A stretch of DNA of 64,000 nt from positions 1,674,001 through 1,738,000 of the forward strand of contig NZ_JBCJKP010000001.1 in NCBI RefSeq assembly GCF_039503195.1. The letters run 5' to 3'. This stretch comes from Streptomyces mirabilis (GTDB taxonomy: Bacteria; Actinomycetota; Actinomycetes; Streptomycetales; Streptomycetaceae). Positions within the stretch are counted from its first letter, which is position 1; each line of letters opens with the position of its first letter. The notes beneath the pieces were generated by a model. That model worked only from the letters and a program-made list of their open reading frames with translations. It had not been told where the DNA came from and searched no databases. Below are positions 4,021-37,400 of this stretch, piece after piece. Both the position numbers and the translations under genes were made by a program.

Positions 4021-5379
4021 ATGACGACCACCGCACCCGCGCATCCCGTGCATCCCGTCGACGAGGTCCCACCCGTACGCCACCTGGCCGCCTTCGGGCT
4101 CCAGCATGTGCTCGCGATGTACGCGGGCGCGGTGGCCGTGCCGCTGATCGTGGGCGGGGCGATGAAGCTCTCGCCTGCCGACCTCGCGTATCTGATCACC
4201 GCGGACCTGCTGGTGTGCGGTATCGCGACCCTCATCCAGTGCGTGGGCTTCTGGCGGTTCGGTGTACGACTGCCGATCATGCAGGGCTGCACCTTCGCGG
4301 CGGTCTCGCCGATGGTCCTGATCGGGACGACGGGCGGCGGGCTGCCCGCGATCTACGGATCGGTGATCGTCGCGGGGCTCGCGATCGTGTTGCTGGCGCC
4401 GGTCTTCGGCAGGCTGCTGCGCTTCTTCCCGCCACTGGTCACGGGCACCGTCATCCTGATCATCGGGGTCTCGCTGCTGCCGGTCGCGGGCAACTGGGCG
4501 GCGGGCGGAGTGGGCGCGAAGGACTTCGGGGAACCGAAGAACCTGGCGCTCGCGGGCTTCGTCCTGGCCGTGGTGCTGGCTGTGCAACGGTTCGCGCCGC
4601 CCTTCCTGGGCCGGGTCGCGGTGCTCGTCGGCATCGCGGTGGGCCTCGCCGTGGCGGTGCCGTTCGGGTTCACGGACTTCGGCGGGGTCGGGGACGCCGA
4701 CTGGCTCGGGATCAGCACGCCGTTCCACTTCGGCACTCCCACGTTCCACGTCTCCGCGATCGTGTCGATGCTGGTCGTGGCGCTGGTGACGATGACGGAG
4801 ACGACCGGTGACCTCATCGCGGTCGGCGAGATGACCGACCGGAAGGTCGAGCCGCGCACGCTGGCCGACGGTCTGCGCGCCGACGGTCTCTCCACGGTGC
4901 TCGGCGGTGTGTTCAACACCTTCCCCTACACGGCGTTCGCGCAGAACGTGGGTCTGGTCGGCATGACCCGGGTGCGCAGCCGCTGGGTGGTGGCGACCGC
5001 GGGCGGCATTCTCGTCCTGCTCGGTCTGCTGCCCAAGCTGGGCGCGGTGGTCGCGGCGGTACCGGCACCGGTCCTTGGCGGCGCGGGTCTGGTGATGTTC
5101 GGGACGGTCGCCGCGAGCGGGCTGCGGACGCTGGCCGAGGTGGACTTCAAGGGCAACAACAACCTGACGGTGGTGGCCGTCTCGGTCGCCGTGGGCATGC
5201 TCCCCGTCGGCGTGCCGACGGTCTACGCGAAGTTCCCCGACTGGTTCCAGACGGTGATGAACAGCGGGATCAGCGCCGGGTGCCTGACGGCGATCGTCCT
5301 GAACCTGCTCTTCAACCACCTGCCGGGGAAGGCGGGTTCGGCCGGGTCCGCCGCCGAACCGAAGGCCGCCTCGGTCTGA
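4021..5379 (+). CDS. NCS2 family purine (urate/xanthine) permease
   Basis: A 452-residue integral membrane protein with about 12-14 hydrophobic segments. The NCS2/NAT signature QNVGLVGMTR is present, as is TMTETTGDLIAVGEM, where acidic residues bind the nucleobase. The family couples uptake of uracil, xanthine or urate to protons or sodium; the sequence is closer to the urate/xanthine branch than to UraA, which is an inference. ATG at 4021 follows TGGAG at 4011-4015. A xanthine dehydrogenase operon lies at the other end of the window, so a joint role in purine use is possible. The gene runs tail to tail with the ArsR-like gene, 22 bp apart. Confidence 0.9.
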   Translation: MTTTAPAHPVHPVDEVPPVRHLAAFGLQHVLAMYAGAVAVPLIVGGAMKLSPADLAYLITADLLVCGIATLIQCVGFWRFGVRLPIMQGCTFAAVSPMVLIGTTGGGLPAIYGSVIVAGLAIVLLAPVFGRLLRFFPPLVTGTVILIIGVSLLPVAGNWAAGGVGAKDFGEPKNLALAGFVLAVVLAVQRFAPPFLGRVAVLVGIAVGLAVAVPFGFTDFGGVGDADWLGISTPFHFGTPTFHVSAIVSMLVVALVTMTETTGDLIAVGEMTDRKVEPRTLADGLRADGLSTVLGGVFNTFPYTAFAQNVGLVGMTRVRSRWVVATAGGILVLLGLLPKLGAVVAAVPAPVLGGAGLVMFGTVAASGLRTLAEVDFKGNNNLTVVAVSVAVGMLPVGVPTVYAKFPDWFQTVMNSGISAGCLTAIVLNLLFNHLPGKAGSAGSAAEPKAASV

Positions 5380-22125: not shown

Positions 22126-22701
22126 GTGGGAGTTTCCCTGTCCAAAGGCGGCAATGTCTCGCTCAGCAAGGAGGCACCGGGCCTGACCGCGGTCCTGGTC
22201 GGTCTGGGCTGGGACGTGCGGACCACGACGGGCACCGACTACGACCTCGACGCGTCCGCGCTGCTGGTCGACGAGTCGGGCAAGGTCCTCTCGGACCAGC
22301 ACTTCGTCTTCTACAACAACCTGAAGAGCCCGGACGGTTCGGTCGAGCACACCGGCGACAACCTGACCGGTGAGGGCGAGGGCGACGACGAGTCGATCAA
22401 GGTGAACCTGGCCGGCGTACCGGCCGAGGTCGCCAAGATCGTGTTCCCGGTCTCGATCCACGACGCCGACGCGCGCGGACAGAGCTTCGGCCAGGTCCGC
22501 AACGCGTTCATCCGTGTCGTCAACCAGGCCGGCGGCACCGAACTCGCGCGCTACGACCTGTCGGAGGACGCCGCGTCCGAAACCGCGATGATCTTCGGCG
22601 AGCTGTATCGCAACGGCGCGGAGTGGAAGTTCCGCGCGGTGGGCCAGGGGTACGCCTCGGGTCTGTCCGGGATCGCCTCCGACTTCGGCGTCGGGGTCTG
22701 A
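22126..22701 (+). CDS. terD: TerD-family stress/tellurium-resistance protein
   Basis: A 191-residue cytosolic protein with the TerD start [14 protein letters not shown] and the calcium-binding [10 protein letters not shown]. Further family blocks are [10 protein letters not shown] and [14 protein letters not shown]. TerD proteins bind calcium and belong to stress systems that often also contain VWA and ATPase proteins. GTG at 22126 follows GGAGGAG. The next genes on the same strand are a HEAT-repeat protein (174 bp away) and the MoxR/VWA cassette, so a functional link is possible though not shown by overlap. Confidence 0.93.
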
Positions 22702-22875: not shown

Positions 22876-24903
22876 GTGTTCACGGGGATGGACGAGGTCG
22901 GCTGGGCCTCGATGAAACATGCCTACGGAAGCGCCGAGGACGTCCCGGAGTTGCTCCGGGGACTGGCCTCCGCATGCCCTCAGGAGCGTGAGAGAGCGCT
23001 CGACGGGATGTACGGAGCCGTGCACCACCAGGGCGATGTCTACGACTCGACGCTCGCGTGCATCCCGTTCCTGTTCGAACTCGTCGGGCATACGGAACTC
23101 CACGACCGGGGCGGCGTCGTGGAGCTGCTCGTCAGCATCGGCGGTGGGGACGCCTTCGACGACGGTCCGCTCGAAGACGGGGACGGCGCCGAGGGCAACT
23201 ACGCCATGGCACGCACGGCGGTACGGTCGGGCGCCGCGGCCTTCATCGGCCTGCTCGCGGACCGGGACCCGGAGGTGCGCCGGACGGCACCGACGGCGCT
23301 GGTGCGGTTCCTCGGCCAACCGGAGCACGTCCTTGGGCTGTTGACGGGACGACTCGAGGAGGAAGAGGAAGAACAGGTCCGGCCGGCCCTGGCCGAGGGC
23401 CTGGGGCTGTTCGCGCGCCTGCACCCCGCGTCCGCCGCTCCCGCGGTGGAGTACCTGGTCGAACTCGGTGCCGCTCCGCACGACCCCGGGCTGCGGCTCG
23501 CCGCCCTCGGCCAACTCGCCGGCTGCGCACCCGATCGCCTTCCAGCCGACCTCGTGCCCACGGTCATCGCACTGCTTCGGGCCAGATCACGACGACCCCG
23601 GGTGCCGGACCAACCCGAGCGGCCCGACACCGACACCCTCATCGGCCACCTGCGACGCCTGCGCCCCGCCGACGAGGAGGGGGGGCATCTCCTGCAAACC
23701 CTGCACACCGCGCTCGGCGGCCGGACCGCCGACCGGATCGCCCTGCTCAAGGGGCAGTTGAGCAGCGACGAGACGGCCGACCGGTGCAACGGCGTGTGGA
23801 TGGCGGCGGGGCTGTTGCGTGAATGGCGGGGCTCCTACGAAGAGCTGGTCGCGTCGATCGGCGAACAGGTCGTCGCCGAGGAGCAGCGGCTGCGCGATGC
23901 CGCGGCCTCCGTCCTGGAGACACTCTTCGGTCTGGCCGCCCCGGCCGCCGACCACCTGGCCGCCCTGGTGGCGACGGGCCCCGAGCACCGGATACGCCAG
24001 TGGGAGCGCGGGGCGCCGACCCTCGGCGCCCCGCTCAAGGCGCTCGCCAGAGCCGGCGATCCGCGCGCGGTGGCGGCGCTCGCCGAGGTGCTGGACGGGC
24101 CGGTCGTGCCTCCCGAAACCGGTTACGAAGCCGAGCACTTGGGCCCGGCCGCGGCCACACTCGCTCCACTGCTGCGCGAGCGGCTCCGCGAGGTCCCCCT
24201 CGACGCACTCGACACCTACGACCGTGCGGCGCCGCTGCTGTTCGCGCTCGGCAGGCTGGGACACGCGCCTGCGGTGCCGGAGATGCTGCGGCTGCTGCAC
24301 GGGGCGCCGGAGGGGCTGCGGAGCCGGGAGTGGCTCGTGCGGGCGATCGCCGACGCGCTCGGCAGGTGCGGCCCGGACGCGCGAGAGGCGATACCGGCCC
24401 TGCGTGAACTGCTGGACGGGGGGTGCGCGGTGGCGGCGGCCGGCGCGCTCTGGTCGCTGGAGGGCGACGCGGAGGCCGTACTGCCGACGCTGCGAAGAGA
24501 ATTGGTGGAGGAACCGCTCCACGCACGCAACGCGGCCGAGGCACTGGGCCGACTGGGACCCGCGGCCCGGCCCGCCCTGCCGGCACTGCGCGCCATGGCC
24601 GACTCCGGGAAGGTGTGGCTGCGTGCGAGCGCCACGGGCGCCCTGTGGGACATCGCCGGGGATCCAGGACCGGTTCTCCCCACGCTCCGCTCCGTCTGGG
24701 AACAGAACGCGCACACCCGCGCCCTCCTCGCCGGCTGTCTGACCCGGATGGGGCCGGCGGGCGCGCCCGCCCACGATCTTCTCCGTACAGAACTCGCCAC
24801 GCCGCGGCGGCACCAGGCACGCGCCGGCGGATACGGCAGCCATGACATCGCCGAGGACGAACAGCTGCTGCGTGCCTGCCGCGCCGCCCTGGACGCCGCG
24901 TAG
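22876..24903 (+). CDS. HEAT-repeat scaffold protein
   Basis: A 675-residue, almost all-helical protein. Repeats of about 30-40 residues with the HEAT pattern run through most of it, for example RDPEVRRTAPTALVRFLG, AGDPRAVAALAEVL and ARNAAEALGRLGPAARPALP. Such solenoids bind other proteins or nucleic acid and rarely have enzymatic sites; none is visible here. GTG at 22876 is chosen for GGGGAGG (22864-22870) five bases upstream; a frame from 22825 adds unlikely residues. A small hairpin after the stop (24912-24929) separates it from the DUF4132 gene. Partners are unknown. Confidence 0.82.
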   Translation: MFTGMDEVGWASMKHAYGSAEDVPELLRGLASACPQERERALDGMYGAVHHQGDVYDSTLACIPFLFELVGHTELHDRGGVVELLVSIGGGDAFDDGPLEDGDGAEGNYAMARTAVRSGAAAFIGLLADRDPEVRRTAPTALVRFLGQPEHVLGLLTGRLEEEEEEQVRPALAEGLGLFARLHPASAAPAVEYLVELGAAPHDPGLRLAALGQLAGCAPDRLPADLVPTVIALLRARSRRPRVPDQPERPDTDTLIGHLRRLRPADEEGGHLLQTLHTALGGRTADRIALLKGQLSSDETADRCNGVWMAAGLLREWRGSYEELVASIGEQVVAEEQRLRDAAASVLETLFGLAAPAADHLAALVATGPEHRIRQWERGAPTLGAPLKALARAGDPRAVAALAEVLDGPVVPPETGYEAEHLGPAAATLAPLLRERLREVPLDALDTYDRAAPLLFALGRLGHAPAVPEMLRLLHGAPEGLRSREWLVRAIADALGRCGPDAREAIPALRELLDGGCAVAAAGALWSLEGDAEAVLPTLRRELVEEPLHARNAAEALGRLGPAARPALPALRAMADSGKVWLRASATGALWDIAGDPGPVLPTLRSVWEQNAHTRALLAGCLTRMGPAGAPAHDLLRTELATPRRHQARAGGYGSHDIAEDEQLLRACRAALDAA

Positions 24904-24929: not shown

Positions 24930-25009
24930 ACAGCCCTTCGGGGCATTGTCAGACCCCTCCCCTACTGTGATCACCATCGCCGACAGGTGGGTTCGGGAGG
25001 GGTCCTGTC

Positions 25010-25891
25010 ATGGGTTGGATCGAGACATCCAGTGGGTACGCCGTCACGTTGGACGGCGCACAGGTGCGGTGCCGTAACGCGGCCGGACGCATGTTGAAGC
25101 AGGTGCCCGCGAAGCTGCGGGACGACGTGGAGGTCGTCCGGCTGCGGCAGCTGGCCGAGTGGCTGGAGCGGCATGAGCGGGAGTGCCGCTCCCAGGTGGA
25201 CACCTGGATCGTCCGCTCCCTGCCCGTGCCGACGGACCTGCTGGCCCGGGTGTGGCCCGACGCCGCCTGGCAGGCGGCGCTGCGGGACCTGGTGGTGGCG
25301 CCGGTGGACACGGACGGCACGGTCGCGCTGGAGCTCGCCGGATTCCTGCGGGACGCGGATCCGGAGCAGGGCCTCGGCGTGGTGGACCTGGACGGCGACT
25401 CGGTCCGGCTCGCCGCGCGGACGGTGGTGATACCGCATCCGGTGCTCCTCGAAGACCTGGAGGAGCTGCGGGAGTTCGCGGCGGAGCTCGGTGTCGAGCA
25501 AGGCGCGGGCCAGTTGTTCCGGGAGGTCTGGCCCCGGCCGGACGAGAGGGACGGCGCCGCCTTCGAGTGGAGTGCCTACGCGGGCGGGAAGTTCGAGGAA
25601 CTGCGGCACGCGACCGCGCGGGCGGGTTCGTACGGCTATCGGGTACGCGGCGGGTACGCGGTGTGCCCGCTGATCGAGAACGGGGTCGCGGTGGAGGCGG
25701 CCTACTGGATCGGCGCCGACTACCCGGAGTCCGAGACCCGCACCGGCGGCCTGGAGTGGCGGGCCGCGGGCGGGCGCCGGCTGCCGTTGCGGGAGGTGGG
25801 GCCGGTCGCCTGGTCGGAGGGGGTTCGGATGGCGGCTTTGGTGTACGCGGGGCGTGTGGTGAACGGCGAGGACGAGGAGGGGGAGCTGTGA
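25010..25891 (+). CDS. DUF4132-domain protein, first gene of the MoxR/VWA cassette
   Basis: A 293-residue protein. The opening, VTLDGAQVRCRNAAGRMLKQV followed by LRQLAEWLERHERECR, is the pattern I associate with DUF4132, the domain of E. coli YehI (MolR). The rest is mixed alpha/beta with IPHPVLLEDLEELREFAAELG and SYGYRVRGGYAVCP, and has no recognisable catalytic motif. The function of the domain is not known. ATG at 25010 follows GGGAGGGG. The stop overlaps the next gene's start in a GTGA arrangement (25888-25891), so the two are translated together. Confidence 0.75.
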   Translation: MGWIETSSGYAVTLDGAQVRCRNAAGRMLKQVPAKLRDDVEVVRLRQLAEWLERHERECRSQVDTWIVRSLPVPTDLLARVWPDAAWQAALRDLVVAPVDTDGTVALELAGFLRDADPEQGLGVVDLDGDSVRLAARTVVIPHPVLLEDLEELREFAAELGVEQGAGQLFREVWPRPDERDGAAFEWSAYAGGKFEELRHATARAGSYGYRVRGGYAVCPLIENGVAVEAAYWIGADYPESETRTGGLEWRAAGGRRLPLREVGPVAWSEGVRMAALVYAGRVVNGEDEEGEL

Positions 25892-28800
25892 GCGGGGATC
25901 AGCTGCTGGAGTCGGGAGCGGTACTGCCGCTGGGCGAGGGTGCCGGCGATGTGCTGACGGCGCGGACGTACGGGCATCCCGTACTGGAGGGGCGCACGGT
26001 GGTGCGGCTGGTGCCCGAGGCGACCGGGCCCGCCGAGGACCTCGCTCTGGAGTACCTGGGCTTCGGTACCGCCCACGCGGCGCCGGTGGGCCGGGTGAGG
26101 CGGCAGTCGCTGGGTTTCCCCGCCTGGGCGCTGGTCAACGACCCGGTGAACGGGCACCATGCGCTCGCCGTGGTCAAGGAGATGGAGCGGCTCACCCGGA
26201 TGGTGTCGAGCAAGCCGGGCCACGCCAAGGACGGCTTCGACGAGATCGGCGCCCGGCTGGACCGGTCGGTGCCGCACTTCCTGCCGACGTACTACGAGCA
26301 GGTGGCCCGGTTGTTCCTGGCGGCGGAGTCGCGCCAGCACGCCGCGTCGTTCTTCGGCAAGGCCCGGGCCGCCGAGCAGCGGCACGCCCTCGACGTGGAC
26401 GAGGACCGGCTGCGGGAGGTGTTCCTGGAGTTCGCCGGAGCGGGCGCGCTGAGCGGGAAGGCACTGCGCGAGCACGCCAAGGGCCTGGCGGCACGACTGT
26501 CCGGCACGGATGCGTACGAGCAGTTCAGGACGCTGTCGTCGCAGCGCTGCGCGGCCGGGATCGCTCCCTACGCGGGCATGCTGGAGGATCTGCGGCGGCT
26601 GGCGAAGGGGGCGGGACTCGACCCGCGCGCCGAGGAGCGGGCGCTGCTCGCCGAGATCCTCCCCTCGGGGGCCATGAACCGCGCGGCCGGGAGCTTCTGG
26701 AAGTCCGCGCTGCCCGCTCTGGCGGAGCTGGCGCACGAGGATCCGGCGGTACGGGAGCGGTTGTTGACGCTGATGCCGTCCACGGGCGGTGATCAGCGCG
26801 AGGAGTTCGACGCGGCGTGGCTGGCGCTGCTCGACGCCTGCGGGGCGATCGGTCTGCTGCTCGACGGCACGGTCGACGCGGCCGACTGGCTGAGCTCCTG
26901 GGACCGGCACCGTCAGCGCGGCTGGCGGCAGCGCAAGCGGCTCGTCGAGGAGCTCGCCCTGGTGGAGCGGCTGGCGCCCCGGCTGATCGCCGACGGCAAG
27001 CCGGTGCGGCTGCTGCGCGAGCAGGGCTGGAACTCCTCTGTGGATCTCGACCTGCTGGACACCGCCCTCGCGGCGGGTGTGCCGGTCGCCGACCCGTCCC
27101 CTGAGACCGAGGGTCTGGAGCTGCGCTACTGGACGGACGACGAGCGCCCGGGCCGCCGGGACCTGGCCGCGGTCACCGCCGACCCGCGCTTCACTCCCCT
27201 GTTGCGCAGGGCGGTGGAGAGCCTCTCGCTCGTGGACGGACCCGCGTCCGGACCGTCGGCCCGCGTGCGGCGGCTCGCGGACCATCCGGCGCTGCGCACG
27301 GCCGTGGCGGGCTGGCTGCGGGACCGTGCCGACGCACTGGCCGAGCCGGTCGGCCTGCCGGGGCTCGACGAGCTGCTGGCCAAGGTCTCCCGCTTCTCGG
27401 CACCCGCCGTACTGGCGACGGCACCGGAGGCCGTCCGTCGGATCGTCGGATTCGATCCCGCCCCGGTCCTGGGCCGCACCCTGCGTGCGGGCATCCTCGA
27501 CGAACTGGGCTGGCCCGCCCTCGAAGAGGCCCTGGACACCCTCGGCAAGGTCACTCCTCCGGCGAGTGGACCACACCCGTGGCAGCGTCAGCACGGCCGG
27601 TCGTACCAGTACGCGGACGCCTGGCCCGCGCTGATCGTCCGTGTCGAGACCCAGGTCGCGCTGGCCGGCCCCGACGCGCTGCTCGACGCGCGGACGCTCA
27701 CCCTGCCGTCCCAGGGACGCCAGTACGGCGAGCCGACGGTGCGTCACGTGGACGGCCAGTGGCTCATCGCGTCGGGGTACGGGAACGAGCAGCGGGCCGT
27801 CTGGTCCGGGCGCCCCGCCGACGTGTTCAAGCCGACGGGCCTGCCGGGCGGCTGGTACGGCGGCCACCCGGTGTCGCTCGCGCTGCCCGACGGCGGTCGC
27901 TGTTTCGGCGGCCGGCCCGTGCACGCCGGGGACACCACGTTCGCCGAGCAGCACCGCGAGATCGCCTCGGACGGCATCTCGTACTGGGTGCTGCACGAGA
28001 ACCGCTGGCACGAGTACGACCCCGCCTCCGCCAGGCGCGGCCGGATGTCGGTGCCTGCGTTCTTCGACTCGGCGCTCGCCGACGCCCGCCCGGGCATCGT
28101 CCTCACACAGACGGACTGCCGGCTGCTGCCGGTCCAGCCGGGTCTGGAGGGCTCGCCGTTCGGCAGCAAGGACGGGCTGCTCGGCTGGTGGGTGACGCAC
28201 GACCAGAACTCCGGTGCCTGGACGGCCTGTTCGGTCGACGGGAACCGCAGCCCGGCGACCACCAAGGGCGTTCCGGCCCCGCCCCTGCGCCTGCCGCGCG
28301 GCGCCGTCCTGCACCCCGTGCAGACGGGCTGGAACCGCACGATCGTCGAGCTGTGCGACAGCGACGGCCTGTCGCTGGCCCGCGTCCAGCTGGGCGACCG
28401 CGGCAGCGCACATGCGGCGGGCACCCGCTTCCTGCCGCCGCTGTGGTACTGGCACGCGCTGCGCCCGCGCGACGAGCACGGCTCGGCCGCGCTGCGGGCC
28501 GTGACCGACGCGGACGCCACCGCGCTGTTGGCCGCCGTCCGGGACGGCGAGAGCCCGCGGGAGGCCGTGGCCCGGCTGCTGCCCGCCGTCACCGACGAGC
28601 GGCTCGCCCTCGGGGTGGCCGGGTTGGTCGAGGAGACGGCCCGCTGCGCCAAGCGAATCGCCACGCTTGGCGAGCGGGCCGAGCGGCCGGTCGCCGCGCC
28701 GCAGGACGAGGAGGAAGTCCGGCACGCGTACGACCACGTCCTGCGCGAGGCGCTGCGGGAGCTCACCGCTCCCGGACACTTCTACGGTTACTACGGCAAC

Positions 28801-30777
28801 GAGCAACACGCCACCACCGCGGTCGACCAGCTCAGGGCGCTGCGCTCACTGTTGGCCCCGGGCACACCGCCCTCGAAGTTCCCGTTCGTCGGCACCGGAG
28901 TCGCCTGGCTCTCGCTGATCGGTCCCGGCACGGCGGCGGCGGCCCTGCGCGCCGCCGCGCCCACCACGCCGGAGAGCCGGCGCACCGGGCTGCTGGAATT
29001 CCTCGACGTCGTTCTGTCGGTCGGCGACGGGGTGCTCGTCGATCCCCGCGGACGACTGCGGGTCGTGCAGCTCAAGGCCTCCCGGTCGGAGCGGCCGGAG
29101 CGCGTCGGGGAGGTGCTGGCCTCGGGCGACCGGCGGCTGCTGATCCTGTCCTGCCAGAAGGTCGACGCGGGCGACGCGTACTGGAACGCCGTCGAGTACG
29201 CCCCGGCGGGCGAGTTCGGCCCCTGGGAGGGCTTCGCACTCGTCGCGTCCGAGATCCGGGGTACGCCCGGGGACGAGGCCCTGGCGCCCGCCGTACGGCG
29301 GTTGGTGGCGCTCGTGCGGGAGCGGGGACCGCTGCCCTACCGGCCGGAGCAGGCGCGGGAGTTCGCCGAGCGAGTGGGTGTCAGCGCGGTGGCCGGAGCG
29401 CTGCTGCTCCTCGGGCTGCCCGGGCTCAACTCCTACGGCAAGGACGGACTGCTGCCCGCGGAGCACCTCCAGCCACTGGGCGCGAAGAGCGCGCAGGCGC
29501 AGGCCGCCCGGACCGCTCTCGATGAACTCTCCATCGCGGAACGGCAGTTGTTCACCGCCACGCTGATCCCCACGGATCCCGGACGCATGGAACGGCTGTG
29601 GACCGACGGTTTCGACCTGGAGCCTGTCGTACGGATCTGGATCGAGCGGCGGGGGCAGCGGCGGGCGGCGCCGCCCGAGCTGATCGCGCGGATGGTGAGC
29701 GAGATCGGACCGGGCCGGATGCTGGACGCGGTCCTCAACCCCCAGGCGCGCCCCGAGCTGACCGGTCGCACCGAGCAGCGGATGCGGGGCAACGGACTCG
29801 AACCGCTGGACGCCCAGTCCCTGTTCACCGGCTCCACCCTGGCCGCGTACGTCGGCATGCTGCGCTGGCTCGCCTATCGGCTGCCGTACGGCGATCCGCT
29901 GCGCGCGACGCTGCCCGAGACCCTGCGCATGCTCCGCGAGCGCCTCACCGACCCCGGGCTGCTGCTCGACCTCGGGGTGACCTGGGGCCATGACGGCAAC
30001 ACGGTGTCGACCGGGGTACGGGAGACGTTCGGGCTGCCCGCCCAGGGAGGCGGGGACGCGGAGGGCCTGCTGCGGGCGGGCCCGGCGATCGTGCTGGCGC
30101 CGATGCGGCACCGCTCGGAGTGGGACACCGTATGGCTGCGGCCGTCGGCCGTGCTGCCGCAGGCGGGCGAGGACGGCGGACCCGATCACCCGGCGCTGAA
30201 GCTGCTCGCGGCGCTGAGCCGGGACAGCGGGCAACTGCAGTCGCTGCGCACGCTGTTGAGCGAGGAGTTCACCGTCCTGGTCACGGCGGACGGCCCTCCC
30301 GGAGCCGCCCAGCACCCGGCCCACAGCGTGCCGGAGCTGGTGGCCGAGGCAGTGCAGCGGTGCGGGCTCTCCGAGGACGCGGCCGGGCTCTATCTGATGC
30401 TGCTCGCGCTCCCGGACCCCACGGACCGCAACCAGGCGGCCTGGACCGGCTGGAAGCCCGCGCGGCTGAAGCGGGCCAGGGTCGAACTGGCCGCCACCGG
30501 GCTGGTGGTGGAGGCGAAGCGGTCCCGGGCCGGGCGAGCGCAGTTCCTGCCCGGCGGCTGGCTGGAGCACAAGGCGCCGCGGCTGCCCGTCGAGAGCTGG
30601 AAAACGCCGCTGCTGCCGGAGACGGCCCACGGTTTCGTGGTGCCGGACCGCCCGGTGCCGGAGTTGTTCGCGCGGGCCTGGCGGCGGGTCGTCGAGGGTG
30701 ACGCGCCCGGGTTCGAGGAGTTCGCCGGGCGCGGTGGCCGGGGCGGCAGAGGCGGCCGGAGCGGAGGCAGGGCATGA
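25888..30777 (+). CDS. Very large (1629 aa) cassette protein of unknown function, possible nucleic-acid binder
   Basis: I recognise no catalytic family. Residues 1-570 are mainly helical. Residues about 570-860 are rich in aromatic residues, glycine and short strands (for instance SGYGNEQRAVWSGRP), like a beta-propeller or beta-sandwich. A second helical region follows. Near residues 1495-1580, DRNQAAWTGWKPARLKRARVEL and the strand pair after it resemble a winged helix. The last 18 residues are a Gly/Arg tail (GRGGRGGRGGRSGGRA), as seen in RNA-binding proteins. GTG at 25888 overlaps the previous stop and ATG of the ATPase gene overlaps this stop (30774-30777). Its place between DUF4132 and the ATPase marks it as a core part of the system. 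Confidence 0.8.
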   Translation: MSGDQLLESGAVLPLGEGAGDVLTARTYGHPVLEGRTVVRLVPEATGPAEDLALEYLGFGTAHAAPVGRVRRQSLGFPAWALVNDPVNGHHALAVVKEMERLTRMVSSKPGHAKDGFDEIGARLDRSVPHFLPTYYEQVARLFLAAESRQHAASFFGKARAAEQRHALDVDEDRLREVFLEFAGAGALSGKALREHAKGLAARLSGTDAYEQFRTLSSQRCAAGIAPYAGMLEDLRRLAKGAGLDPRAEERALLAEILPSGAMNRAAGSFWKSALPALAELAHEDPAVRERLLTLMPSTGGDQREEFDAAWLALLDACGAIGLLLDGTVDAADWLSSWDRHRQRGWRQRKRLVEELALVERLAPRLIADGKPVRLLREQGWNSSVDLDLLDTALAAGVPVADPSPETEGLELRYWTDDERPGRRDLAAVTADPRFTPLLRRAVESLSLVDGPASGPSARVRRLADHPALRTAVAGWLRDRADALAEPVGLPGLDELLAKVSRFSAPAVLATAPEAVRRIVGFDPAPVLGRTLRAGILDELGWPALEEALDTLGKVTPPASGPHPWQRQHGRSYQYADAWPALIVRVETQVALAGPDALLDARTLTLPSQGRQYGEPTVRHVDGQWLIASGYGNEQRAVWSGRPADVFKPTGLPGGWYGGHPVSLALPDGGRCFGGRPVHAGDTTFAEQHREIASDGISYWVLHENRWHEYDPASARRGRMSVPAFFDSALADARPGIVLTQTDCRLLPVQPGLEGSPFGSKDGLLGWWVTHDQNSGAWTACSVDGNRSPATTKGVPAPPLRLPRGAVLHPVQTGWNRTIVELCDSDGLSLARVQLGDRGSAHAAGTRFLPPLWYWHALRPRDEHGSAALRAVTDADATALLAAVRDGESPREAVARLLPAVTDERLALGVAGLVEETARCAKRIATLGERAERPVAAPQDEEEVRHAYDHVLREALRELTAPGHFYGYYGNEQHATTAVDQLRALRSLLAPGTPPSKFPFVGTGVAWLSLIGPGTAAAALRAAAPTTPESRRTGLLEFLDVVLSVGDGVLVDPRGRLRVVQLKASRSERPERVGEVLASGDRRLLILSCQKVDAGDAYWNAVEYAPAGEFGPWEGFALVASEIRGTPGDEALAPAVRRLVALVRERGPLPYRPEQAREFAERVGVSAVAGALLLLGLPGLNSYGKDGLLPAEHLQPLGAKSAQAQAARTALDELSIAERQLFTATLIPTDPGRMERLWTDGFDLEPVVRIWIERRGQRRAAPPELIARMVSEIGPGRMLDAVLNPQARPELTGRTEQRMRGNGLEPLDAQSLFTGSTLAAYVGMLRWLAYRLPYGDPLRATLPETLRMLRERLTDPGLLLDLGVTWGHDGNTVSTGVRETFGLPAQGGGDAEGLLRAGPAIVLAPMRHRSEWDTVWLRPSAVLPQAGEDGGPDHPALKLLAALSRDSGQLQSLRTLLSEEFTVLVTADGPPGAAQHPAHSVPELVAEAVQRCGLSEDAAGLYLMLLALPDPTDRNQAAWTGWKPARLKRARVELAATGLVVEAKRSRAGRAQFLPGGWLEHKAPRLPVESWKTPLLPETAHGFVVPDRPVPELFARAWRRVVEGDAPGFEEFAGRGGRGGRGGRSGGRA

Positions 30778-32012
30778 GCGGCGGACAGAGCACGGCGAGC
30801 GGGACGACGGCATCGGGTGAGACGGCAAGGACGGACGTGACGGAGGCGATGGGCGTAACGGGTGTGCCGGACGTGTCGAGCGTGACGGGCGCGCGGCAGA
30901 TCGAGCTGCCCGAGGACCGTCATGCCGAGGAGCTGGCGTTTCTCGCGGCGTACGACGAGGGGCCGCGACCGCCGGGCTGGCGCCTGACCCCGCGCGCCGT
31001 GGTGACGTTCGTGTGCGGTTCGGACGGCGAGGCGCTGAGCGGCGCGGACGGGCGACGGCTCGTCGTGTCACGGAAGTTCGTGGGCGACCGGGGACTCGTC
31101 GAGCGGTGCGTGGTGACGCTCGCGGGCGAGCGGGGTCTCCTGCTGGTCGGCGAGCCCGGCACCGCCAAGTCGATGCTCTCCGAGCTGCTGGCCGCCGCCG
31201 TGTGCGGCACCAGCGCGCTCACCGTGCAGGGCACCGCGGGCACCACGGAGGACCAGCTCAGATACGGCTGGAACTACGCGATGCTGCTCGCCGCGGGGCC
31301 GAGCCGAGCGGCCATGGTGCCCTCACCCGTGCTCACGGCCATGACCCGGGGAGCCGTCGCCCGGATCGAGGAGGTCACGCGTTGTCTGCCCGAGGTGCAG
31401 GACGCCCTGGTGTCCCTGCTGTCCGAACGACGCATCGCGGTACCGGAGTTGGCCGGCGGCCCGGAGGGGGACGGCACGGTGCACGCCGTGCCGGGGTTCA
31501 CGCTGATCGCCACGGCCAACCTCCGTGACCGCGGTGTCTCCGAGATGTCCGCCGCCCTCAAGCGCCGCTTCAACTTCGAGACCGTCGGACCGATCGACGA
31601 CCTCGACGCCGAGACGGAGCTGGTCCGAGGCCAGGCCACGGCCGCGCTCGCCCGCTCGGGTGCCCGTTTCTCCGTCGACGACGCGGTGCTGGAGGCGCTG
31701 GTCACGGCCTTCCGGGAGCTGCGCTCGGGCCGCAGCGCGGAGGGCTGGGAGGTCGAGCGGCCCACCACGGTGATGTCGACGGCGGAGGCGGTGCAGGTCG
31801 CCACGTCCATGGGCCTGGGCGCCGCGTATCTCGGGGACGGCAGGGATGTCGTGCGCACCCTGCCCGGCCATCTGCTCGGCACGGTACGCAAGGACGACCC
31901 GGCCGATCACGCACGGCTGCTGGGCTACTGGGACGGTCCGGTGCGGCGGCGCGCGGAGCAGGGCGCCGCGCTGTGGCGGACGCTGTGGGAGCTGCGCGAT
32001 GACCTCGTGTGA
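30774..32012 (+). CDS. MoxR-type AAA+ ATPase of the VWA/SWIM cassette
   Basis: A 412-residue ATPase. Residues 1-80 are a low-complexity Ser/Thr/Gly/Val head and then a basic region. The P-loop is GEPGTAKS with Lys132. The Walker B strand reads AVARIEEVTR, so the usual Asp-Glu is Glu-Glu. Sensor 1 is IATANLRDRG, and SAALKRRFNFE has the arginine finger region. MoxR ATPases act as chaperone-like remodelers and usually pair with a VWA protein, which is encoded next. The start overlaps the upstream stop (ATGA), and the stop lies 14 bp inside the next gene. It corresponds in position and type to E. coli YehL. Confidence 0.9.
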   Translation: MSGGQSTASGTTASGETARTDVTEAMGVTGVPDVSSVTGARQIELPEDRHAEELAFLAAYDEGPRPPGWRLTPRAVVTFVCGSDGEALSGADGRRLVVSRKFVGDRGLVERCVVTLAGERGLLLVGEPGTAKSMLSELLAAAVCGTSALTVQGTAGTTEDQLRYGWNYAMLLAAGPSRAAMVPSPVLTAMTRGAVARIEEVTRCLPEVQDALVSLLSERRIAVPELAGGPEGDGTVHAVPGFTLIATANLRDRGVSEMSAALKRRFNFETVGPIDDLDAETELVRGQATAALARSGARFSVDDAVLEALVTAFRELRSGRSAEGWEVERPTTVMSTAEAVQVATSMGLGAAYLGDGRDVVRTLPGHLLGTVRKDDPADHARLLGYWDGPVRRRAEQGAALWRTLWELRDDLV

Positions 32013-35000
32013 GGCGGCGCCCGACTCGGCGGGGTCGCCCGAGGTGGCTCTGGAGGCGCTGGCCGAGTGTCGGGAACCGTTCCTGATCGGCGTGCGGCAC
32101 CATTCACCGGCGCTCGCGGCGGCCGTGCCGGGCATGCTGTCGGCGGCGGCGCCGGAGGTGCTCCTCATCGAGCTTCCGGAGGAGTTCGCGCCGTGGCTGG
32201 AGTACCTGGGGGACGCGGCGACGGTGCCGCCGGTGGCGCTGGCGGGGAGCCGGGAGCACGGCGGGGTGGTCTTTCTGCCCTTCGCCGAGTTCTCCCCGGA
32301 GCTCGCGGCGATTCGGTGGGCGAGGGGGGCAGGGGTGCCGGTCGTGCCGTTCGACCTGCCCCTGGCAGCGCGGGACGCGGAGGAGCGGACGCGGGAGGTG
32401 GCGGAGGAGCCGGGTGCGGGCCGAGCGGGTGGCGGACGTGGGCGGCTGGCGGCCGCCCTGCGAGCGCGCGCCGGAGGCCGGACGGAGGACGACCTGTGGG
32501 CGCGGTTGGTGGAGTCGGGCGCGCCGGGCGCCGCGCCGGAGGAGTTGCGGCGCGCCGCGCTGCTCGTCGGCTGGGCGTTGCGGGCGGACACCGGAGAGGA
32601 CGCCGTGGACCCGTACGACCTGCGGCGCGAGGCCAATATGCGGGATCGACTGGCCGAGTGTTCGGGGCGGCGTACGGCAGCGGTGATCGGGGCGTTTCAC
32701 GCGCCCGCGCTGCTGCGGGCTGGTTCCGGGCCGGTGGGTTCGGGTTCCGGCCCGGTGGATTCGGGTGCCGGGCAGGTGGGTTCGGGTGCCGGGCAGGTGG
32801 GTTCGGGTGCCGGATCCGCGGAGGGCGTCCCCTCGGTCATCACCTCCCTCGTGCCCTACTCGTACCCGCTGCTCGACGAGCGCTCCGGGTATCCGGCCGG
32901 TATCCGTGATCCGGAGTGGCAGCGAGGGGTGTTCCGGGCGGCCGGGGAGCCGGGACGACTGGACGACTTGCTGACGGCGACGGCTGTGCGGATCTGCGCC
33001 GCCGTCCGCGAGGCGGGACATCCCAGTGGCCCCGCCGACGCCCGGGAGGTGGTGCGGGTGGCGCGGGACTTGGCCACGCTGCGCGGGTTGCCCGCCGCGG
33101 GCCGGGGCGAGCTGGTCGAGGCTGTGCAGACCGTGCTCACGCAGGGCCAGTTGCTGGGTCGGGGGCGGGTGGTGGCCACTGCCATGGAGCGGGTGCTCGT
33201 CGGTGACCGGCAGGGGAGACTCGCTCCTGGCACGCCACGCTCCGGCCTCGGCCCGGCGGTCGAGGGCCTCCTCGCGGAACTCTCGCTGCCCTCCCCCACC
33301 GCTCCCGCCCGTCGTGAGCTGCGGCTCGACGCACTGCGGTCCGAGCTCGACCGCCGACGCGAGATCTGTCTGCGCAGGATGGCGGTCTGCCGTGTCCCCT
33401 ACGGCGAGGAGGCCGACGTCGCCCGGGTCGGCGACGGCGCCGCGCTCACCACCCGGTGGACGGTGACCTGGACGCCCTCGACCGCGGCGATGCTGGAGGT
33501 GACCGGCGTTCACGGAGTGACGTTGGAACAGGCGGCCGGCGGCGTACTGGCGCGGCGACGGGCGGCGGAGCGGCGTGACGGCGGTCCGACCGCGGCCCAG
33601 GTGCTCGCCGGGCTCGAGGACGCGGCCCGCTGCGCCCTCCCGAAGCTCGCCTCGGAGCGCCTCACGGAAGTCGCCGAACTGCTGCCCGCGTCCGGTACCC
33701 TGCCCGAACTCCTCAGCGGGCTCGACCTGTTGAGCCGGATCGGCGCGGGACATGTGCCGGGGCTGCCCGCCCTCTGGGAGAAGGAGCGGATCGAGGCCGC
33801 GTACGAGGAGCTGGGGGCCGCCGGTGTCCGCGCGCTCCACGGGCTGACCGGCTCCACCGACACCGCCGACGCCCGCGCTCTGGTGGACCTCGCCACCCGG
33901 GTGGACGGCGCGGGCGGCGGACTCCGGCTCGCGGACGCCCTCGGCCGCCTGGACGAGGACGCTACGCCGCTGATCCGCGGCGCCGCGGGAGCCGCCCGGG
34001 TGCTGCTGGGGCTGCGGGAGGCGACGGAGTTCGGCACCCGGCTGGCCTCCCGTGTCGACGGTGCCGTGACTCCCGAACTCCGTTCCGACCTCACCGCGTT
34101 CCTGCGCGGCACATTGCTCGCCGCCGGTCCGCTGCTCGAGACGGGCGAGGCCGTGGACCCGCTCCTGGAGCGCGTCGAGTCCCTCACCGACCGGGCTTTC
34201 CTCGACCGCCTGCCGGCCCTGCGCGCCGGCTTCGACGTGCTGGCGCCGGCGGCCCGGTCCCGGATGCTCGCCGCGGTGGAGGACCGCACCGGCCGCGCGG
34301 TGGGCGCGTTGCCGGACGCGGTGGCGGAGCCGGGGTTCCTGGCCCGGATGGCGGCGGCGGATCTGGCGGGGCGGACGGCGTTGGCGGCGGCGGGGTTGGA
34401 CCCCTTGGGCACGGACGCGACGCCTGCCTCGATTCAGACCCCGCACGACAACCCCGGCGTGCCCCACGGTCCTGCCGTATCCCACAGTCCGGTGCCCAAC
34501 AGCCCTGCCGTACCCGGCAGTCGCGCCGTGTCCGACCTTCTCGGCCCCGGAGATCGCTGGCGGCTCCTGCTGGGCAGGGCACGGCAGTTGACGGGGCGGG
34601 CCGGCCGGATCGCCCGCGCACTCGACGAGTTGTACGGCAGCGGACGCGGCGAGGGGGTGGGAGAGCCCGGCGACGACGGTGCCGGCGGCGGGAGCGAGGC
34701 GTCGTTCCCGGATGTGCGGAGCTGGTCCGAGGAGCTGGCGGCGCTCTTCGGGCCCGGGGTACGAGAAGAGGTGCTGGCCGCGGCGGCCGACGCCGGACGC
34801 GTCGACGCCCTGCAGGAACTCGACCCTGCCTCGGCCCGCCCCTCGGTCGAGCTCCTGCGGACGGTCCTCTCGTACGCGGGAGGCATGCCCGAGCAGCAAC
34901 TGGCGCGGCTTCGGCCCCTGGTGGCCCGGCTCGTCAAGGAGCTCACGGACGCCCTCGCCCACAGGCTGCGGCCCGCCCTCGCAGGTCTCGCGCATCCGCG

Positions 35001-35652
35001 GCCCACCCGCAGACCGGGCGGCCCCCTCGATCTCGCCCGCACCGTGCGCGCGAACCTCGCGACGGCGCGCCGCGATCCGGCGACGGGAGCGGTGACGGTG
35101 CTGCCCGAGCGGCCGGTCTTCCGTACCCGGGCCCGCAAGGCGGCCGACTGGCGGCTCGTGCTGGTCGTCGATGTGTCCGGGTCCATGGAGGCGTCGACGA
35201 TCTGGGCGGCGCTCACCGCGTCCGTGGTCGCCGGGGTCCCGGCACTGAGCACGCACTTCGTGGCGTTCTCGACGGAGGTCGTGGACCTCACCGATCAGGT
35301 GGACGATCCCCTCGGGCTGCTCCTCGAGGTGCGGGTCGGCGGCGGGACGAGCATCGCCCGGGGTCTGCGGCACGCGCGCTCACTGGTGACGGTTCCCTCC
35401 CGCACCCTGGTCGTCCTGGTCAGCGACTTCGAGGAGGGGGGTCCGGTGGGCCCGCTGCTGTCCGAGGTGCGGGCACTCGTCGACTCGGGGTGCCACGTTC
35501 TCGGCTGCGCCTCGCTGGACGACGCGGGCCGACCGCGCTACTCGGCCGGTGTGGCGGGGCAGTTGGTGGCCGCGGGCATGCCGGTGGCGGCCCTCAGCCC
35601 GCTGGAACTGGCCCGCTGGGTGGGCGAACGCATGGGAGGTACACACCGATGA
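31999..35652 (+). CDS. DUF5682-VWA fusion protein
   Basis: A 1217-residue frame with two parts. Residues 1 to about 800 match DUF5682, opening with FLIGVRHHSPALAAAVPGML and VLLIELPEEF. Residues about 850-1217 match the VWA partner; the MIDAS metal site is complete, with Asp1058, Ser1060 and Ser1062 in DVSGS, GGGTS, and SDFEEG. A Pro/Ser/His-rich linker (about 814-850) joins them, and a second low-complexity insert of 7-residue repeats (GSGAGQV type) lies at 242-274. In E. coli the same families are two proteins, YehM and YehP, of about the two lengths seen here. ATG at 31999 follows GGGAG and overlaps the ATPase gene by 14 bp. Confidence 0.88.
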   Translation: MTSCEAAPDSAGSPEVALEALAECREPFLIGVRHHSPALAAAVPGMLSAAAPEVLLIELPEEFAPWLEYLGDAATVPPVALAGSREHGGVVFLPFAEFSPELAAIRWARGAGVPVVPFDLPLAARDAEERTREVAEEPGAGRAGGGRGRLAAALRARAGGRTEDDLWARLVESGAPGAAPEELRRAALLVGWALRADTGEDAVDPYDLRREANMRDRLAECSGRRTAAVIGAFHAPALLRAGSGPVGSGSGPVDSGAGQVGSGAGQVGSGAGSAEGVPSVITSLVPYSYPLLDERSGYPAGIRDPEWQRGVFRAAGEPGRLDDLLTATAVRICAAVREAGHPSGPADAREVVRVARDLATLRGLPAAGRGELVEAVQTVLTQGQLLGRGRVVATAMERVLVGDRQGRLAPGTPRSGLGPAVEGLLAELSLPSPTAPARRELRLDALRSELDRRREICLRRMAVCRVPYGEEADVARVGDGAALTTRWTVTWTPSTAAMLEVTGVHGVTLEQAAGGVLARRRAAERRDGGPTAAQVLAGLEDAARCALPKLASERLTEVAELLPASGTLPELLSGLDLLSRIGAGHVPGLPALWEKERIEAAYEELGAAGVRALHGLTGSTDTADARALVDLATRVDGAGGGLRLADALGRLDEDATPLIRGAAGAARVLLGLREATEFGTRLASRVDGAVTPELRSDLTAFLRGTLLAAGPLLETGEAVDPLLERVESLTDRAFLDRLPALRAGFDVLAPAARSRMLAAVEDRTGRAVGALPDAVAEPGFLARMAAADLAGRTALAAAGLDPLGTDATPASIQTPHDNPGVPHGPAVSHSPVPNSPAVPGSRAVSDLLGPGDRWRLLLGRARQLTGRAGRIARALDELYGSGRGEGVGEPGDDGAGGGSEASFPDVRSWSEELAALFGPGVREEVLAAAADAGRVDALQELDPASARPSVELLRTVLSYAGGMPEQQLARLRPLVARLVKELTDALAHRLRPALAGLAHPRPTRRPGGPLDLARTVRANLATARRDPATGAVTVLPERPVFRTRARKAADWRLVLVVDVSGSMEASTIWAALTASVVAGVPALSTHFVAFSTEVVDLTDQVDDPLGLLLEVRVGGGTSIARGLRHARSLVTVPSRTLVVLVSDFEEGGPVGPLLSEVRALVDSGCHVLGCASLDDAGRPRYSAGVAGQLVAAGMPVAALSPLELARWVGERMGGTHR
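32722..32817 (+). repeat. 21-bp tandem repeat inside the DUF5682-VWA gene
   Basis: About four and a half in-frame 21-bp units encode GSGSGPV, DSGAGQV, GSGAGQV and GSGAGSA. Units at 32758-32778 and 32779-32799 differ in one base. The repeat forms a flexible loop within the DUF5682 part and could vary in length between strains. Confidence 0.85.
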
Positions 35653-37400
35653 CCACGCTTCCCCCGGTGACGGCCGAAGTGGCGGCCGGCGCGCTGGAGT
35701 CGCTCCCGACCCGGCTGCGCACACGTGCCGACTCGGCCGCGACCAAGGCGGCCAACTGGCCCGTCGCCGTCACGGACGCGACGGTCGTGGTGCGGGTCGA
35801 CGACTCGACGACGGTCACTCTCACCACCACGGCCGGGGTGGTGACGTCCGCCGAGGATGCCGTGTGCAGCTGTCTGCTCGCGCCGGCGTGTCTGCATCGT
35901 GCGGCGGTCCTGACGCTGGCGCCGCTGGCGGAGGAGACGGACCAACCGGCGGCGACGGCTGTCGTGCCGTCGGACGCCGGGGACTCCACCCCTGTCGTCC
36001 CTCCGGAGACCGGGGCCTTCGACCTCACTCCCCCGCAGTCCGCGGCGGTGGACGCCCTCCGGGTGGCCGCGACCGCCGTACTGGCGGCCGGAGTGACCGG
36101 CTCCGGTGCCGTGCTCCGCGCCACGCTCCTCCATGCCGCCCACTCGGCGCGCGTCGCCGGACTCCACCGCGCCGCGGCCGCGGCCGTCCGGGTGGCGCGG
36201 CGGCTCTCCGAGGCGGGCACCGGGGACCCCGCGTTCCGACTGCCCGAACTGGCTTCGGAGCTGGCGGAGTTGCTGACCGTCGCCGCCGGGCTGCGCCGGG
36301 CGCCGGACCCGGGTCTGCTCGGCACCGCGCGTCGGGCTTATACGGCGAACGGTTCGCTGCGAGTGCACGGTCTGTTCACCGAGCCGGTGGTGACCGCTTC
36401 GGGGTACGCGGGGGCGGTCACGTACGCCCTCGCGCAGGACGGCCGGCTCCGCTCGCTGTCCGACGTGGCGCCGGGCGACGCCGACCGCGCTCGACAGGCC
36501 GCGGGCTCCGCGGTCCCCGGCGGCAGCGCCCTCACCCTGCGGGAACTGGGCGACCACGGCGGGGCGATCCTCACCGACGCGACCGTCTCGCCGGACGGGC
36601 GGATCGGCGGTGGCGGCGTGATCCGTTCCGTACGGGCGTCGGGGGCCCGTTGGCACGAGGAGCCGCTCGACACGCTCTGGCGGCGTTCCCCGGCCGACCA
36701 GGTGGCCTCCGCGCTGCGGTGGTCGGCCGAGCCCGCGGACGAACGGGACGTGGGTGGTGACCTGCTCTTCCTCACCGGGACGATCACCGGCGGAGGGTTC
36801 GCCGTGGACGGTGGTCCCACGGTGCGCCTCCTGGCGCCGGACGAGCGTCCCGGACTCCCCTACGTCGAGAATCTCCGGCTTCTGGCGGGGGCCCACGGTC
36901 TGTCCCTGCGGCTCGTCGCACGGCTCGCGGCGGACCGGCCGAGCGGTGTACGCGCCCTCGCCGCGGCCTGGCAGGGCACGGACGGCGACCCGGTCCGCGC
37001 GGACCTCGGCCTGCGCCGCCTCAACCGCACCCACCTGCCCAGGACCGCAACGGCCGTCATCCCTTCCACCTCAGCGCCCGCGCTTCCCACGGAACTCGAC
37101 CTCCTGCGGCGGGCCGTGGACCGCGCGGTCGCGGGAGGCCGCGCCGTCACCGCCACCGTGGCCGACGGCGCACTCCCCCGTCGGCTCGCCGCGGTGGGTC
37201 TGACCACGGGGGCCGCGTGCGCGCGAGCGCTGGTGGACACCGCGTCGGACCGGCGCCATGACGCGCTGGGCCGACTGCGGCCGGCCGACCCGGAGGCGTA
37301 CGCCCGCGCCTGGCTCGCGTCGTCCACATACGCCTCGGCCGCGACGGCGTCCCTCCTCACGGCCGCGTGGGCACCGGAGGGGGCCCACGATCCGGCCTGA
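35649..37400 (+). CDS. SWIM zinc-finger protein, last gene of the cassette
   Basis: A 583-residue protein. The SWIM zinc site is CSCLLAPACLH, with Cys73, Cys75, Cys81 and His83 in a CxCx5CxH pattern; SWIM fingers bind DNA or proteins. The remaining 480 residues are mostly helical and Ala/Leu/Arg-rich, with stretches such as GRIGGGGVIRSVRASG that suggest an oligosaccharide/nucleic-acid-binding-like beta region, though I cannot name it. ATG at 35649 overlaps the VWA stop (ATGA). It corresponds to E. coli YehQ. Only 13 bp separate it from the convergent Rv1733c-family gene, which ends the cassette. Confidence 0.88.
   Translation: MTTLPPVTAEVAAGALESLPTRLRTRADSAATKAANWPVAVTDATVVVRVDDSTTVTLTTTAGVVTSAEDAVCSCLLAPACLHRAAVLTLAPLAEETDQPAATAVVPSDAGDSTPVVPPETGAFDLTPPQSAAVDALRVAATAVLAAGVTGSGAVLRATLLHAAHSARVAGLHRAAAAAVRVARRLSEAGTGDPAFRLPELASELAELLTVAAGLRRAPDPGLLGTARRAYTANGSLRVHGLFTEPVVTASGYAGAVTYALAQDGRLRSLSDVAPGDADRARQAAGSAVPGGSALTLRELGDHGGAILTDATVSPDGRIGGGGVIRSVRASGARWHEEPLDTLWRRSPADQVASALRWSAEPADERDVGGDLLFLTGTITGGGFAVDGGPTVRLLAPDERPGLPYVENLRLLAGAHGLSLRLVARLAADRPSGVRALAAAWQGTDGDPVRADLGLRRLNRTHLPRTATAVIPSTSAPALPTELDLLRRAVDRAVAGGRAVTATVADGALPRRLAAVGLTTGAACARALVDTASDRRHDALGRLRPADPEAYARAWLASSTYASAATASLLTAAWAPEGAHDPA

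Follow-up and report, generated by a model that had tools for sequence, protein, structure and literature searches.

The MoxR family of AAA+ ATPases works with proteins carrying a VWA domain; in the NorQD (PMC13036017) and RavA-ViaA (PMC3893208) systems a MoxR ring is described as driving a VWA-bound target. YehL is one of seven named MoxR subfamilies (PMC3893208), and no function for it was found in the literature searched. In Escherichia coli, the yehI-yehL-yehM-yehP-yehQ locus encodes MoxR, DUF5682, VWA, SWIM and DUF4132 proteins on one strand, with DUF5682 directly before VWA. Here we describe a related cassette of five + strand open reading frames (ORFs) in Streptomyces mirabilis, at positions 25010-37400 of a 64,000-nucleotide stretch of contig NZ_JBCJKP010000001.1 (the window), which lies at 1.67-1.74 Mb of the 11.1 Mb genome. 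Judging from its promoter and domains, the cassette is probably a DNA-damage-inducible protein-remodelling machine of YehL type, in which an AAA+ MoxR-VWA assembly bears a TIKI-like hydrolase head.

The five genes encode a DUF4132 protein of 293 aa (25010..25891; PF13569, 95 bits), a giant protein of 1629 aa that lies outside known families (25888..30777; ORF and profile scans), a MoxR AAA+ ATPase of YehL type of 412 aa (30774..32012; AAA_5, 128 bits), a DUF5682-VWA fusion of 1217 aa equivalent to YehM and YehP in one chain (31999..35652; PF18934 (DUF5682) 616 bits, PF05762 (VWA_CoxE) 218 bits) and a SWIM zinc-finger protein of 583 aa (35649..37400). An earlier note on this DNA had claimed that the genes overlap at every junction, and all ORFs and all four junctions are confirmed in the sequence: GTGA at 25888, ATGA at 30774, a 14-base overlap (ATGACCTCGTGTGA) at 31999-32012 and ATGA at 35649. 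The P-loop, MIDAS and CxCx5CxH motifs that it reported are likewise present, respectively as GEPGTAKS in gene 3 (Walker A, 31149..31172), DVSGSM in gene 4 (35170-35187, inside the VWA_CoxE domain, PF05762, at 34954..35622) and CSCLLAPACLH in gene 5 (35865-35897), all on the + strand. To these the present analysis adds a damage motif, a TIKI/TraB-like domain, two more MoxR-DUF5682-VWA copies and the occurrence of the DUF4132-giant pair without MoxR.

A PafBC-type motif upstream of the cassette

The PafBC or RecA-NDp promoter motif is printed as TGTC[GA]G-N10-TA-N3-T, with a TGTCAC variant (PMC8151990), and a block shared by the regions upstream of sister cassettes is this published motif. The window copy (TGTCAGACCCCTCCCCTACTGT, of the form TGTCAG-N10-TA-N3-T; 24947..24968, + strand) is exact, begins 63 bases before the ATG of gene 1 and is the sole exact match on either strand of the 64 kb. 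Its conservation was surveyed in 87 loci, made up of the window, six further loci and the best 80 of 348 loci retrieved from the GTDB species collection by a profile search with the giant, kept with flanks of up to 10 kb; the conservation surveys are thus conditional on the giant being found. An exact motif occurred within 160 bp upstream of 67 of 85 cassettes vs. 6 of 583 control genes (drawn from the rest of the same loci and each preceded by more than 60 bp), and shuffled cassette upstream regions gave a mean of 0.03 and a maximum of 1 in 85; the cassette loci are related, so that these counts are not independent events, but their flanks are mostly not shared. The numbers rose to 81/85 vs. 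8/583 when the TGTCAC variant was allowed within 200 bp, and to 84/85 vs. 32/583 with up to one mismatch over the same distance. The first base of the motif lies 58-63 bases ahead of the ATG in 56 of the 67 cassettes. A complete cassette copy on a linear Streptomyces plasmid carries the motif, again exact, 107 bases upstream of the first gene.

The motif is also found upstream of most Streptomyces loci of three other architectures of the same machine. The S. mirabilis genome itself contains three MoxR-DUF5682-VWA loci, namely the window, a locus at 10.0 Mb (L006) and one on the sucCD side (L005), where DUF5691 and a SWIM-type protein are encoded on the opposite strand and the assignment of the neighbours as sucC/sucD is supported by their ATP-grasp_2 and CoA-ligase domains. 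The sucCD-side locus has the motif in 7 of 8 Streptomyces genomes (it was not found within the 5.4 kb stretch of G128). By layout it lies before the divergent SWIM-DUF5691 arm in three of these (L005, L054 and L055), and in the remaining four its direction is away from MoxR and the gene lies beyond the stretch examined. A further architecture has the motif in three of four loci (L006, L046 and L052). In these three, in a yeh-like locus of another Streptomyces encoding a WGR-DUF4132 protein (L038), and in L162, L164 and L174, it lies about 50-125 bases ahead of the first gene and on the correct strand. L174 carries DUF4132, giant, DUF5682-VWA and SWIM, the latter called in two pieces, with the MoxR gene not called.

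A longer form of the motif, TTGTCRGTG-N8-TANNNT, has 41 sites in the genome, compared to none for the reversed pattern. We inspected 30 of these sites and scanned ten downstream genes with NCBIfam. RecA, UvrB, RuvC, uracil-DNA glycosylase (ung), DnaX, ThyX and S6 scored over the cut-off, while PcrA, a RarA-like ATPase (AAA) and a DNA helicase scored below it; it should be noted that several of the scanned proteins are truncated where the locus ends, and that the called dnaX start overlaps the motif. The cassette has in common with the PafBC/RecA-NDp regulon of actinobacteria its promoter motif, which in this genome also occurs before repair genes. The genome has two adjacent WYL genes, one of which matches PDB 6sj9 (PafBC) at 6.8e-49, and on this match it encodes PafBC. 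A UV-inducible Streptomyces gene with a promoter of RecA-NDp type has been reported (PMC5087735); no paper dealing with RecA-NDp and MoxR together was found in the literature searched. The earlier note had proposed a stress or conflict function, and this can be narrowed to DNA-damage stress because the promoter carries the actinobacterial DNA-damage motif.

Control by LexA was considered and rejected. A box of the type CGAAC-N4-GTTCG, which we take to be the Streptomyces SOS-box pattern, was present within 300 bp of only 1 of 85 cassettes. The leader also contains a perfect 10-base inverted repeat (24952-24961 and 24995-25004, arms GACCCCTCCC and GGGAGGGGTC), similar in the closest sisters. 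Its left arm lies within the promoter motif and its right arm is the ribosome-binding site, the purine-rich, Shine-Dalgarno-like GGGAGGGG of gene 1 being located at 24995..25002 (+ strand). A leader hairpin over the Shine-Dalgarno sequence was discarded because the left arm, being within the promoter motif, is probably not transcribed.

A TraB/TIKI-like domain in DUF5682

The conserved DUF5682 motifs GVRHHSP, (L)IE, RE..M and GA[FW]H resemble those of TraB/PrgY. In gene 4 they fall at 32089-32103 (GVRHH), 32164-32172 (LIE), 32626-32640 (REANM) and 32689-32700 (GAFH), in a TIKI/TraB-like part at approximately 32056..32853 (+ strand), for which the evidence is an hhalign comparison of stand-alone relatives. 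In that comparison, 17 stand-alone DUF5682 N-termini, YehM included, matched 43 TraB-family sequences at 96.2% (E 2.1e-9, 227 columns). The pooled DUF5682 group matched TraB at 73.8%, with the motifs in register in the alignment, and the stand-alone and window-type groups matched each other at 100% (E 3.9e-55). Control comparisons with six unrelated profiles reached at most 0.7% for the two DUF5682 groups (12 pairs) and 0.6% for TraB. A Pfam scan of 48 DUF5682 members gave TraB_PrgY_gumN in eight and ChaN/Tiki in three, all sub-threshold, and in the three proteins with coordinates the matches lie in the last part of the profile, around the second GxxH. Searching PDB sequences with DUF5682 yielded no credible match, and no mention of DUF5682 was found in the literature searched.

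The motifs are well kept among fused homologues: G[VI]RHH[SA]P in 70/73, and both RE..M and G[AS][FWY]H in 73/73. In seven plasmid relatives, the first is present in six and the other two in all seven. The profile comparisons support the idea that DUF5682 starts with a remote domain of the TraB/TIKI superfamily. Like TraB/PrgY, GumN, ChaN and TIKI, DUF5682 has collinear GxxH, E, RE..M and GxxH motifs; unlike them, the domain is here followed by a long second part and is fused to VWA. The TIKI enzymes are described as using a 2His/2Glu chemistry (PMC6254334).

Over 366 aligned columns the MoxR protein shares 46.7% identity with YehL (287 bits, with 296 and 252 bits for its paralogues in the same genome), and all 121 MoxR homologues of more than 330 aa keep Walker A. 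In the gene 4 product, the regions aligning to YehM and YehP follow one another, in the order DUF5682 then VWA_CoxE, and D.SGSM is present in 73/73 fused homologues longer than 1000 aa. The gene 5 protein scores 15.5 bits against Pfam SWIM, for a cut-off of 19.6, with CxCx5CxH retained by 61 of the 63 homologues that exceed 400 aa; its profile matches a three-member group of other SWIM proteins including YehQ at 94.8% (E 5e-8) vs. 0.3% for YehQ alone.

Conservation and relatives of the cassette

The earlier note had suggested a gene-neighbourhood survey. The five genes do stay together: of 63 loci with enough sequence on either side, 59 have all of them in the same order. The four exceptions (L064, L068, L109 and L114) have no recognised SWIM gene directly next, or DUF5682 in two pieces, which could reflect errors of frame or of gene calling. 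Where all five genes were found (63 loci), 4-base overlaps join DUF4132 to the giant in 62, the giant to MoxR in 41 and the fusion to SWIM in 60. The 14-base MoxR overlap of the window recurs in five, with 2-5 bases between the genes in 49. In comparisons with two close relatives, the dN/dS ratios of the five genes lay in the range 0.10-0.34, lowest for DUF4132 and MoxR. Gene order and dN/dS together indicate that the cassette is more than a chance grouping. Against two distant relatives, the ratio was 0.46-0.81 for the giant, 0.34-0.55 for SWIM and 0.16-0.25 for MoxR; the faster evolution of the giant and SWIM is as expected if both meet changing partners. The flanks comprise 413 genes in 254 clusters, the largest common to 12 loci. 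Since the flanks vary and the five genes are kept, it looks as if the cassette had moved as a unit. A giant homologue is found in 58 of 121 Streptomyces genomes, 47 of these matching at at least 39% identity over most of the giant, and 11 being partial or more distant, in the matches listed.

Directly 5′ of the cassette is a gene for a HEAT-repeat protein (22876-24903, + strand), a 30% identical relative of which lies near the 10.0 Mb paralogous cassette (L006:1320-3500, - strand). A HEAT-repeat gene adjoins the cassette in only four surveyed loci, window included. Two genes 5′ of the cassette is a TerD-domain gene (22126-22701, + strand).

The giant gave nothing at E 0.1 in Pfam, NCBIfam or PADLOC and has no credible Pfam or PDB relative. 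Its homologues number 1005 at E 0.001 among the candidates scored, the top protein match being a Streptomyces mirabilis protein (97%). The DUF4132 gene is 5′ of the giant in 85/85 loci with room. Three loci have DUF4132 and the giant without MoxR (L157, L164 and L170), and in three others an N-terminal DUF4132 piece is fused to parts of the giant (L162, L163 and L173). The occurrence of such pairs and fusions without MoxR argues that genes 1 and 2 make up one functional unit. Two candidate relationships of the giant were rejected: hhalign gave 0.2% against the YehI family profile, had it been the split-off body of YehI, and 0.7% for a kinship with DUF5691. Nor did it show any relation to yeh proteins, of which the seven intact ones were compared (without the K-12 pseudogene yehH).

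The likeness to the E. coli yeh genes pointed out by the earlier note holds for YehL, YehM and YehP, which are homologous, for the DUF4132 of YehI and, more tentatively, for the SWIM of YehQ, but not for the giant, which has no detectable yeh counterpart. The two loci differ further in that DUF5682 and VWA are fused here, that YehI is one 1210-aa protein with a C-terminal DUF4132 whereas DUF4132 is here a small, separate protein, and that the promoter here is of PafBC type. From this comparison, the cassette is a variant of the YehL-type locus rather than a plain member, because there is no single YehI-like protein, DUF4132 being separate and the giant unrelated to YehI.

Of 31 plasmid matches to YehM, eight were inspected (seven non-actinobacterial and one from Streptomyces). 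An AAA ATPase gene was beside DUF5682, or one small gene away, in all eight; VWA, as a gene or fused, was found in seven, annotated SWIM in six, DUF4132 in four and DUF5691 in four. The SWIM-DUF5691-MoxR-DUF5682-VWA loci (Deinococcus, Rhizobium and Methylosinus plasmids, and the sucCD side) share the MoxR, DUF5682, VWA and SWIM core with the window (VWA is not annotated in the Methylosinus record), but have DUF5691 in place of the DUF4132-giant pair and separate genes for DUF5682 and VWA. At L006, DUF5682 is divergent (97 bits in one profile search, unreported by hmmscan) and the Cys-rich first protein of this type is not a canonical SWIM. Taking the eight plasmid loci together with the Streptomyces architectures, the core of most types would thus be MoxR, DUF5682, VWA, SWIM and one large partner of DUF4132 or DUF5691 type. 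A search of 50,697 phage records by tblastn gave a single YehL match at the E 1e-5 threshold (MT835988.1, 12858-13931; 40% identity), in an unannotated record from a human faecal sample.

Outside the actinobacteria, the Deinococcus plasmid cassette has an RDRM-like palindrome (4724-4738, 2/15 mismatches) about 20 bases before the start of SWIM, its first gene. This is the best site in 19.5 kb, with 6% of shuffles giving a site with up to three mismatches. The D. radiodurans DUF4132 protein DRA0166 and WGR protein DR2173 are reported to go up on mitomycin C in the wild type, but not without irrE (PMC8533742). MolR is described as LexA-regulated in a published account. In E. coli, a LexA-like CTGGATAAAATTACAG lies nine bases before yehF, which encodes a WGR protein (L001:6450-6465). 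As an E. coli LexA box, CTGGATAAAATTACAG was set aside, one-mismatch sites being at chance level in this stretch (13 found vs. 10.6 expected).

Proposed role and rival explanations

We propose that damage-activated PafBC would switch the operon on through its RecA-NDp-type promoter (24947-24968), a step for which the motif argues. MoxR would form an AAA+ ring and VWA would be the adaptor gripping the target, by analogy with MoxR/VWA biochemistry. DUF5682, fused to VWA and with conserved His/Glu motifs, may cut peptide or ester bonds, as its profile relatives suggest. SWIM and the DUF4132-giant pair would choose the target, most likely damaged or protein-blocked DNA or repair complexes, which the machine would pull apart and might cleave. 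Because the VWA is here joined to a probable hydrolase head, the most economical interpretation is that the machine, once induced by damage, both extracts and cleaves. SWIM proteins act as recombination partners (Shu2/SWS1) and WGR is a DNA-break reader in PARPs, roles that point the same way. The ATPase-VWA remodelling machine with a zinc-finger partner put forward in the earlier note fits the domains and the tight gene order, the nucleic-acid-binding part staying putative.

Several observations weigh against this proposal. On the side of the promoter, the motif is absent from L053, from 16 of 18 giant loci without MoxR (it is present in L162 and L164) and from the cassettes of eight actinobacterial loci of other families (L044, L045, L047-L051 and L056), L051 having one variant site away from the cassette. 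Of the 30 genomic sites inspected, many do not precede any named repair gene; for six, including the site on the sucCD side, no gene is called within 350 bp. An initial search is reported to have seen no conserved motif of M. smegmatis type in S. venezuelae (PMC9380542, 2022). No LexA-type box was found in the 300 bp directly before the first gene of four alphaproteobacterial, the Iodobacter (first DUF4132 gene only) and the Hymenobacter plasmid loci; in L219 a site with one mismatch lies 280 bp upstream, as can be expected by chance. On the side of the domain, the window-type DUF5682 group alone matches TraB at 50.7% over only 48 columns in hhalign, the TraB link passes through stand-alone relatives about 28% identical to the window type, and the Pfam TraB/ChaN matches are individually insignificant (best E 0.016).

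Could the cassette instead serve in immunity or conflict, responding to DNA damage (by phage attack, for example) and harming invader or host complexes through the TIKI-like domain? The patchy giant, the varying flanks, the cassettes on plasmids (one beside restriction-modification genes) and the faster evolution of the giant and SWIM would all suit such a role, and MoxR-vWA cores do serve conflict systems (PMC7159879). The ternary systems of that study (Kaur et al. 2020) share with the cassette a MoxR and vWA core plus a further component, but no VMAP, iSTAND, FtsH-pair or beta-propeller scored over the Pfam cut-off here (bpMoxR 20.3 bits vs. 27), folds too remote for Pfam being beyond the reach of this test, and SWIM, DUF4132 and YehL are absent from the main text of PMC7159879. 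The vWA here has no variable effector: the DUF5682-VWA fusion recurs with VWA ending the chain, no exchangeable effector domain was seen and the five genes are constant in surveyed loci. For the MoxR protein, PADLOC returned nothing beyond weak, partial AAA matches (best E 5e-4), and the other four proteins had no match, so that a defence-system label was not adopted; an NCBIfam scan of the five proteins gave only sub-threshold matches. Stand-alone DUF5682 of the sucCD-side type (973-1005 bits) is present in 8/8 same-genus genomes among the matches listed, and the promoter belongs to a repair regulon. We consider a conflict role unlikely on balance.

More doubtful still is a reading in which the motif is real but the machine is a general chaperone for stress-damaged proteins and the TIKI-like domain is a scaffold that binds peptides without catalysis. 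Chaperone-like behaviour is usual for MoxR proteins (PMC3893208) and the SWIM score is below threshold, but the retention of the His/Glu motifs in fused homologues and plasmid relatives is at odds with a dead scaffold. Very improbable, finally, is a metallochaperone like NorQD/CoxDE that inserts a metal or cofactor in a target enzyme, perhaps linked to molybdate as in the old MolR work. MoxR-VWA pairs do drive metal insertion (PMC13036017), the VWA belongs to the VWA_CoxE family and DUF4132 has been linked to molybdate use (PMC8533742). Yet none of the five is a metalloenzyme or cofactor gene, the flanks differ from locus to locus so that no fixed target gene is linked, the promoter is of DNA-damage type, and moeA and moeB of D. 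radiodurans were not differentially expressed when the DUF4132 and WGR genes were (PMC8533742). Of ten window neighbours scanned, one, at a distance of about 8 kb, is an FTR1 iron permease that has an imelysin domain and is not a metalloenzyme target.

The damage-inducible remodelling machine proposed here might, as a tentative generalization, represent a wider design in which an AAA+ ring (MoxR-VWA) and a TIKI-type protease extract and destroy DNA-stuck proteins in several phyla, under varied damage regulators. It would take in yeh in Proteobacteria, SWIM-DUF5691 in Deinococcus and several types in Streptomyces, with PafBC, DdrO/IrrE and perhaps LexA as regulators. In its logic it would be an analogue of the eukaryotic p97-SPRTN route.

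The promoter evidence gives YehL-type cassettes a direct test, involving DNA damage, PafBC and mitomycin C, and the TIKI assignment provides an enzymatic hypothesis for DUF5682. The 41 genomic sites make up a candidate list of PafBC targets that includes genes not identified here; with some of them before recA, uvrB and ruvC, they bear on the Streptomyces PafBC regulon, a question that PMC9380542 left open.

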